DNA of 64,000 nucleotides, from the NCBI GenBank assembly GCA_024305405.1, contig JAKNDB010000109.1:6758001-6822000 (forward strand), given 5' to 3'. The translations under genes and the position numbers were made by a program. Each line of letters begins with the position of its first letter. Position 1 is the stretch's first letter. The notes below the pieces were generated by a model. That model saw nothing but the letters and a program-made list of their open reading frames with translations. It had not been told where the DNA came from and did no database searches. Shown in pieces: positions 40,301-42,530 of this stretch. The DNA comes from Dirofilaria immitis. Lineage: Eukaryota > Nematoda > Chromadorea > Rhabditida > Onchocercidae.

Positions 40301-42530
40301 AACTATTTGGGAACAATGGAAGTCGATTGTGCTGATCGAAATGGTTGTGAAACACCGCTGAATTTGAGCAAAGTTAAATTGAAAAGGTTCGTATATTTCG
40401 GTGTTTATGGATTTTTCCATCTACAAACTTTCAAGTTTGGTAGAAAAATCCCATACATAATTCATATTGCTGAATTTTGAATATTAGGAGCTGAAAACAT
40501 AATCGTTCCATAATGTTAATGCTTAGAACAAAAAACGACGAAAGGGATCAAATATTTAGCGACAAATTGATTTTTTATCATAAAAATTAAAATATTAGAA
40601 ATTTTTGACTTCGATTTATATATTAGCTATGTGAAAAAATTTTTGAATTACGTATCTGACGAATGTGTTTGATAAGATATTAAATGAATATTGAGATTTC
40701 TTATCTCCTTAATTTTTAATGCTAAAATCTTACAGTATGATCAGTCGCCCTTGATAACGATATTTCTTAGCCCTTAATAACGAAATCTCATAATACAATC
40801 AGTCGCTAGGATCTAGATTATAATCGATGTACAACTGCTAAAAGTTGAATCTAACATTTTAGGAATCATTGTCATTATTAGCTATGTTTATGAACTAAAT
40901 TTATTGAAATATTTTTCCACTTTTTTACAGGTAATTAGTTCAAACAAAAAAAAAAATTGATTCATTTTCTTCCTTTATTATTATTGCTAATTGATGAAAT
41001 TTTTAAAGCATACTTATGAATGCTAAACATCTAGACATAATTTTGCAGCAGTCTCCAGTTGGTTTTTTCAACTACTAAGTCACCTCTTTCAAACGAAATA
41101 TGATAAATATTTTTTCAGTTCCACAGATCATTCCAAGACACATAAAGTAGCACTGTTGAGCAGTAATAGCAATTTAAAAAAACCATGTTCGCCACTTGAA
41201 CAGCAGTTTCTTAACCGATTACCCTGCTCTTCGATCTCGCATTCTTTCGCCTCAGAAAGTAAGTGAATTTCCAACTTAAATCTTTTGTATCATGATTTAC
41301 AATGTTTCGATTGCCTGACATTGATGTTTCACATTCTTGGCTTGATTGCTGTTTATCAATCTACGGGCTTTAAAGTGTATCTTCATTAGTGAACAGTACC
41401 GTTTTTACAGCGGCAGCAGTAAAATGGTCTCATGGATGATATTATAGAATCCATCCTCTTTATTATTTTAAAAACAAAAATTCTCAAGTCACCAGCTGTT
41501 TTAGATTTTATTGAGAAGTATTTACATTAGTTTTGGTTTTTAGCATCAGCTTTCACTAGTCACTCGCCAGGTTCCTCAGATGAAAGTATGACTGGAGGCG
41601 TGGTGATCTCTGACAATATTCCGGCTCGAATTTCTGCCAAATCACCTAATCACATCAAGCGCCCGATGAATGCCTTCATGGTCTGGGCACGCGATGAGCG
41701 GAGGAAAATTCTAAAAGCTTGTCCAGATATGCACAACAGTAATATTTCGAAAATCCTTGGTTAGATTTGAAAGTTTTACAGTAATGAATTGTGTCCAAAA
41801 AGTATAATCAGTTTTGAAATTATTAGTTCTTAAAATTTTCATACCTGAAGTCTCTTAATATAGGATCGAGATGGAAGGCAATGTCTAATACAGAAAAAAC
41901 AGCCATATTACGAGGAACAATCTCGACTGAGCAAGCTACATATGGAACAACATCCGGATTATCGTTATAGGTATCATCATTTTATTGAGGAAATTTAATT
42001 ATTTGATTAAATTTTTATGAGAGGATTTGGGGCTTAAGCAGTTTTGCATGGTATCATGATAGATTTTTTTGATATCAAAGAAAATTTATAGGTTTCTAAA
42101 CCGTTGGGGCATTATATTGTTTGAGATCCATATGCTTGTCATTGTTTTCAGGCCCAGACCTAAACGAACATGTGTGGTAGATGGGAGGAAAGTGCGTATC
42201 AATGAATATAAGAATTTAATGAGAAACAAAACAGTGGCAAATAATACGGGTTGCTCGTCTGTCACCAGTGAGTGGAATAGTGATATTGATCAGTGTGGAA
42301 CGGTTGCGAGTCCTGGATGTGGTTCCAATCAGTCCTTAACAGTTAACAATAATCCTCTATTCACATCAGCAACAACAGCAATGATGCTTTCCGAGAACAG
42401 TAGTGATACTATCACTCATTCTCGATCATTTTCATCTGTTGATTTTGCCAGTCTCAGTGGTGCCACAGTGCTCACCGATCTGGCCCATCATCATCATCAT
42501 CATTACCATATGTTACAAACAGCTGAATAG
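34318..42530 (+). CDS. egl-13: SoxD-family HMG-box transcription factor, frameshifted in HMG box
   Basis: SoxD proteins (SOX5/6/13; nematode EGL-13) bind the DNA minor groove and act as nuclear regulators of cell fate. Ten exons join in phase: 34318-34503, 34597-34708, 37335-37486, 38754-38879, 39586-39739, 40188-40386, 41119-41258, 41544-41759, 41864-41970 and 42152-42530. With one base removed from exon 9 they encode 589 residues. Exon 5 gives a Leu/Gln-rich segment ([18 protein letters not shown], residues about 203-220) in the place of the family's leucine zipper and Q-box. PLNLS at 300-304 matches the CtBP-binding motif of SOX6. The HMG box (about 393-466) begins [20 protein letters not shown] and continues [20 protein letters not shown], diagnostic of Sox[15 protein letters not shown] closes it. 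After NTEK the frame is lost because of one extra A in A6 at 41894-41899; the next frame continues [17 protein letters not shown]. The C-terminus is short and Ser/Asn-rich with a six-His run. Two more 5' exons (28246, 31189) are likely. Confidence 0.93.
34597..34599 (+). other. egl-13: Tandem NAGNAG acceptor of SoxD exon 2
   Basis: Intron 1 of the core model ends TTTTCAGCAG/GAAGAA. Using the first AG adds a Gln codon and using the second omits it, both in frame. Such tandem acceptors commonly give two isoforms differing by one residue. Confidence 0.6.
34709..37334 (+). other. egl-13: Long SoxD intron (2.6 kb)
   Basis: The intron separates the exon ending LNTP(G) from the exon beginning SAGVTDIPD. 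The acceptor used is CACGTCAG at 37327-37334; the TTCCAG at 37321-37326 would put a TGA in frame after seven codons. A 125-codon antisense frame at 35467-35844 has no recognised motif and is taken as chance. I see no further exon with suitable phases. Confidence 0.6.
40355..40369 (+). other. egl-13: PLNLS CtBP-type motif in SoxD
   Basis: The five codons encode PLNLS in the exon before the HMG-box exons. SOX6 carries PLNLSS and binds CtBP2 through it, and SOX5 has PLNLSAK at the equivalent place. The order Q-rich region, PLNLS, HMG box is the same here, which supports SoxD orthology and suggests corepressor binding. Confidence 0.75.
41894..41899 (+). other. egl-13: Single-base frameshift in SoxD HMG box (A6 run)
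   Basis: The sequence reads ACAGAAAAAACAGCC. Five As would give T-E-K-Q-P and continue [10 protein letters not shown], as in other SoxD boxes; six As give T-E-K-T-A and a stop a few codons past the exon. Exon 9 is 107 bases, and only 106 satisfies the phases of both neighbouring junctions. Both flanks of the run are clearly conserved, so alternative splicing cannot repair it. Confidence 0.9.

Follow-up and report, generated by a model that had tools for sequence, protein, structure and literature searches.

Does Dirofilaria immitis carry a broken SoxD gene, or does its genome assembly have one A too many? In the window, by which we mean the whole stretch of 64,000 bases that we analyzed, the HMG box of this gene is interrupted at a short run of As. 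A sequence-only reading had taken an extra A to be a homopolymer error, as the simplest reading, mainly because it was thought to be the only break in the gene. We describe the break, the state of the rest of the gene and of its neighbor, and the way in which the assembly was made. Then we consider whether the break could be real.

The frame break in the HMG box

The run can be read directly: AAAAAA lies at 41894-41899 on the forward strand, flanked by G and C. It falls within the SoxD exon 41864-41970 (107 bases), which is preceded by AG and followed by GT. If the frame is carried on from the upstream exon, then 11 conserved residues are read up to 41898, followed by 23 foreign residues, and this zero frame of the exon closes with TAG at 41968-41970. 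The conserved 23-residue continuation of the HMG box is read from 41900, which is one base out. A run of six As does break the frame, as had been claimed. We considered an alternative splice acceptor as a remedy, but this is ruled out, as both frames meet inside one exon.

The box was also said to be conserved on both sides of the break, and this is borne out by P0001, which is the SoxD protein from a separate, chromosome-scale assembly of D. immitis. The translations of 41546-41758, 41866-41898, 41900-41968, and 42153-42527 are all letter-identical in P0001, so that the break is missing, at the level of the protein, from the independent assembly. P0001 is encoded on a contig of 27,526,700 bases. 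Table 1 of PMC12546972 gives 27,526,700 bases for the largest chromosome of D. immitis, and this is the X, which has 27.5 Mb according to the legend to Figure 4 of PMC12562366, where one male worm was assembled.

The sequence-only reading had proposed that the exon be compared with those of related nematodes. Among the 120 homologs that were listed (of 2,057 matches), 119 are uninterrupted at the break point, and relative to these the window has one base too many (net +1). We recognized 102 of the 119 by a sequence pattern, and the other 17 have D or Q in place of E. The sole exception among the 120 is P0002, the gene model of the same D. immitis contig.

Identity and structure of the gene

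Judging from its similarities, the gene is SoxD (egl-13/Sox5/6) and is ordinary for a filarial worm. When the translated pieces were joined with an X at the break and used as a query, the orthologs from filarial and related worms (P0001-P0011) matched with a query coverage of 87 to 100%, and "Sox-6" of Ascaris (P0012) was 57% identical. More distant matches included proteins named egl-13 and SOX-5/6. Four entries from C. elegans (P0044 and P0047-P0049), of which three are named egl-13, were 41 to 42% identical at 100% query coverage. The best solved structure for the joined pieces was that of SOX-5 (1i11, E = 5.4e-42). On its own, 41546-41758 matches the Pfam family PF00505 (E = 6e-12), while the 23 residues of 41900-41968 give E = 0.045, which is under Pfam's cut-off, as expected for such a length. 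When 41546-41972 was searched as DNA against the whole assembly, this place alone was returned, with no second SoxD copy or duplicate of the exon. A locus on another contig (L004 on C3), with a box that is split at the same place, was considered as a paralog, but by eye it reads as SoxC-like (SQMERRKICETSPDMHNAEISKR).

The gene is on the forward strand. Two 5' stretches match P0001, at 29627-29766 and at 31189-31248 (DEPQPNNSVGSIMLADHNEL; these limits are those of the match). Tiling with P0001 then gives exons at 34318-34503, 37327-37486, 38754-38879, 39586-39739, and 41119-41258, where the limits of the last two were set by eye, and another exon lies at 34597-34708. The exon at 39586-39739 holds a glutamine-rich stretch of 12 residues in the N-terminal part of the protein (39586-39738, by eye). 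The exon at 40188-40386 is covered by P0001 only from about 40250, while P0002, P0003, P0004, and P0006 include its start. The HMG box begins in 41544-41759, which has the PF00505 match and is exact in P0001, and continues in the broken exon, whose two frames are also exact pieces of P0001. The last exon, 42152-42530, runs to the stop codon, and its 125 residues are exact in P0001.

The annotations differ at two other places. The 21 residues at the start of the exon at 40188 (40188-40250) are in P0002 and have counterparts in P0003, P0004, and P0006, but are missing from P0001. This may reflect a false acceptor in the independent annotation or alternative splicing. Also, just before the glutamine-rich exon, P0002 has an extra stretch of 26 residues (39100-39190) that is absent from P0001, P0003, P0004, P0006, P0007, and P0009, and this is probably a false exon.

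Further breaks in SoxD and in its neighbor

We tiled P0001 over the three forward frames of the window using exact pieces. These pieces account for 637 of its 638 residues with zero replacements, and the remaining residue is a threonine whose codon is split by an intron. At three points the frame changes where no intron would fit: near 29737, near 34629, and at the A run. At the first two of these, in runs of five T and of three G, the window is one base short (net -1), and the break near 34629 is also seen against P0007 from Acanthocheilonema viteae. The remaining exons are therefore not all open and in phase, and the main argument of the sequence-only reading, that this was the sole break in the gene, was wrong. 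An automatic rule for finding breaks was run with four proteins. With P0003 and P0006 it flagged nothing, and it picked up the HMG box break with none of the four, as the match of that exon is too short. Taken alone, three breaks in one gene might look like decay.

As an internal control, we examined the neighbor of SoxD, a Skeletor-like gene (DM13) on the reverse strand at 44557-49386. Its independent counterpart, P0241, is encoded, like P0001, on a contig of 27,526,700 bases. Of the 540 residues of P0241, 538 are covered by exact pieces and the other two have codons that are split by introns, so there is no replacement here either. The tiling has a single frame change, near 46156, where a run of four C is one base short (net -1). 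Taken together, the two genes have 1,178 residues, four frame breaks that are all in single-base runs, and zero replacements. Decay would be expected to bring replacements as well, so breaks without any replacement point to errors in the consensus rather than to decay.

We also note that SoxD and Skeletor are probably a conserved pair of neighbors in nematodes: in Wuchereria, Loa, Litomosoides, and Thelazia, the contigs that hold their matches are equal in length, and their locus names are consecutive in Steinernema hermaphroditum and Necator.

Frame breaks and run lengths elsewhere in the assembly

On another contig (C26:1809500-1816500), a muscle myosin has six -1 shifts relative to P0122 from Brugia in about 850 residues, each of them at most nine bases from an A or T run that is five to seven bases long. 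Among the 120 matches listed for this myosin, there is no model from this assembly. Thus there are nine other confident breaks (two in SoxD, one in Skeletor, and six in the C26 myosin), all of them one base short, and the A run in the HMG box is the only break with one base too many among those that we counted. In this assembly, a base too many in a short run seems to be the rarer kind of error. Another myosin, on C61, has four -1 shifts, but we did not count these: the Brugia reference is not its closest kin, and two of the four shifts are beside runs of only three or four bases in the coiled coil, a region whose repeats may be wrongly aligned.

Frame breaks are unevenly spread over the assembly. 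By eye, we found no breaks in 56 match rows for CCT chaperonins or in 43 match rows for adaptins, and one break in 56 match rows for kinesins (a pair of rows on C21 that overlap in different frames); this inspection is insensitive near the ends of exons.

We also counted runs of A and T by length. Across the window (1-64000), there are 509 runs of A at length four, 211 at five, 39 at six, and 34 at seven, and for T the counts are 481, 214, 49, and 28. In other words, the counts drop smoothly to length five, dip at six, and recover at seven. The ratio from five to six is 0.18 for A and 0.23 for T, and from six to seven it is 0.87 and 0.57. In 27 other, partly overlapping loci the dip is weaker (0.27 and 0.32 from five to six; 0.56 and 0.46 from six to seven). 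The dip at length six fits an undercounting of longer runs, with the comparison made within this assembly only. As an aside, such a dip in A and T runs may be a telltale sign of undercounted run lengths.

The window has other repeats as well. A satellite of ATTC and ATTCC, with an extreme strand asymmetry, extends for about 10 kb from 59826 (59826-64000 in the window) as far as the last base of the contig, 6,827,947, and a (TATG)n microsatellite of about 98 copies at 25991-26381 is open in several frames.

How the assembly was made

The window is positions 6758001-6822000 of contig C60 in an assembly of 86,694,620 bases and 65 contigs. In all likelihood, this is the nanopore-only assembly JAKNDB01 of PMC9179477. 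Section 2.3 of that paper describes the use of nanopore reads alone, with base calling by Guppy 2.3.5, assembly by Flye, and correction by Pilon with the raw reads. The figures that it prints are 110 contigs, 87,899,012 bases, and an N50 of 3,687,191. For the 65 contigs, we recomputed an N50 of 4,253,153, and the printed N50 is the length of the next longest contig (C18), an agreement in seven digits that is unlikely to be accidental. The 65 contigs go down to 10,631 bases in length, and an average of about 27 kb would result for the 45 that are absent relative to the printed 110. Our guess is that short contigs were omitted and that the N50 was taken before contaminants were removed. We find the case for this identification very strong. 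In any event, the argument is carried by the window's own breaks, whatever name the assembly bears.

Why a consensus error is favored

We think it very probable, from the sequence comparisons, that the extra A arose as a homopolymer error in the consensus of a nanopore-only assembly, and that the worm's SoxD is most likely intact. The earlier preference for a homopolymer error thus stands, but on other grounds. It is favored because 638 residues of P0001 are recovered without a replacement, because the neighboring gene has a break of the same kind, and because nanopore reads were, in all likelihood, the sole data for the assembly as well as for its correction. Early nanopore base calling, as with Guppy 2.3.5, would miscount single-base runs. 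If the raw reads are assembled with Flye and the same raw reads are then given to Pilon, a systematic miscount would stay in the consensus, and a miscounted run inside an exon would give a broken frame. We infer that this was the cause here and that the run is shorter in the worm's reads than in the consensus.

The main alternative is that this worm has a real and recent null or polymorphic allele of its X-linked SoxD. The product would stop after the 23 foreign residues and would have neither the remainder of the box nor the C-terminus. In C. elegans, loss of egl-13 is not known to be lethal. A real allele would matter: egl-13/SoxD is a regulator of uterine fate, so that a null in a regulator of neuron and uterine fates would be segregating in a parasite population. 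The titles of papers on C. elegans link egl-13 to the identity of sensory neurons and interneurons. That the A run is one base too long, opposite in sign to every other break that we counted, is what gives a real allele a chance, but the two accompanying breaks in SoxD and the one in its neighbor, all in runs, and the zero replacements in 638 and 540 residues make it very unlikely. Furthermore, the second D. immitis assembly has the frame unbroken, as do 119 of the 120 listed homologs.

Two other explanations are less probable still. The run of six As could be a slippage site, so that a functional protein would be made by programmed +1 frameshifting or by transcriptional slippage, and AAAAAAC does resemble the heptamer motif for -1 slippage. 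But the direction and the phase are both wrong: the shift that is required here is +1, and the codons, which start at 41893, 41896, and 41899, do not line up with the heptamer. Also, the 119 unbroken homologs need no shift, and we consider frameshifting to be scarcely credible. The least probable of all, and one that we would practically dismiss, is that SoxD is a decayed pseudogene, which would explain why it has as many as three frame breaks. There is no sign of relaxed constraint: relative to the intact P0001, not one of 638 residues is replaced, the splice sites from 34597 on are kept (by eye), and no copy other than this one came up when the assembly was searched at the DNA level.

Consequences for the deposited gene model

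The sequence-only reading expected gene prediction to fail at the break, and P0002 bears this out, although the gene was spliced around the break rather than dropped. In P0002, the exon before the break ends after NAFM, where there is a GT at 41681. The next exon begins at 41864 in the third frame, which gives 12 residues, and the true frame is regained after the A run, so that P0002 is without 38 residues of the HMG box. It also carries a shifted reading of 26 residues after the break near 34629. No Pfam domain was found in P0002, while the intact HMG box of P0001 has E = 1.1e-24. As read off the protein, it appears that the predictor (GeneMark-ES, according to PMC9179477), with no open path through the exon, would have taken the GT at 41681, within the HMG box, as a false donor. 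Reading on from 41864 in the third frame would then have cost the 38 box residues and added 12 false ones.

As it stands, this "SOX-5" of D. immitis is misleading: it has no Pfam match, yet the HMG box of the species is intact. We take JAKNDB01 to be the assembly ICBAS_JMDir_1.0 (GCA_024305405.1), which is in use elsewhere. RNA reads from D. immitis were mapped to it in the work described in PMC11144916, and according to PMC12546972 it was used as evidence in annotating Dirofilaria asiatica. We suggest that claims of lost or fast-evolving genes from ICBAS_JMDir_1.0 be checked against the chromosome-scale assembly. For SoxD itself, the significance of the break is only as a warning. A literature search, which was not aimed at the break by name, found no published mention of it.

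Comparison with known systems

The break in the HMG box is almost certainly a known kind of assembly artifact. The indel lies inside a mononucleotide run, as do the homopolymer errors of long reads. As in the long-read-only assemblies discussed in PMC8812927 (Polypolish) and PMC12007338 (Kastor), single-base indels in such runs falsely break genes, and as in that pattern, the break is absent from an independent assembly. Unlike the cases in those two papers, the run here is one base too long (the nine others that we counted are one base short). Another difference from those cases is that this is a eukaryote with introns, so that the predictor spliced around the break instead of splitting the gene. 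As for the gene, SoxD of C. elegans (egl-13) and of vertebrates (SOX5/SOX6) has an HMG box and a glutamine-rich N-terminal part. We find the box here, at one locus, and the glutamine-rich stretch that we saw by eye would be the counterpart of the latter. Compared with egl-13 and SOX5/SOX6, only the frame in this assembly differs, and the protein that is encoded would be an ordinary filarial one, like P0001 and P0003-P0009.
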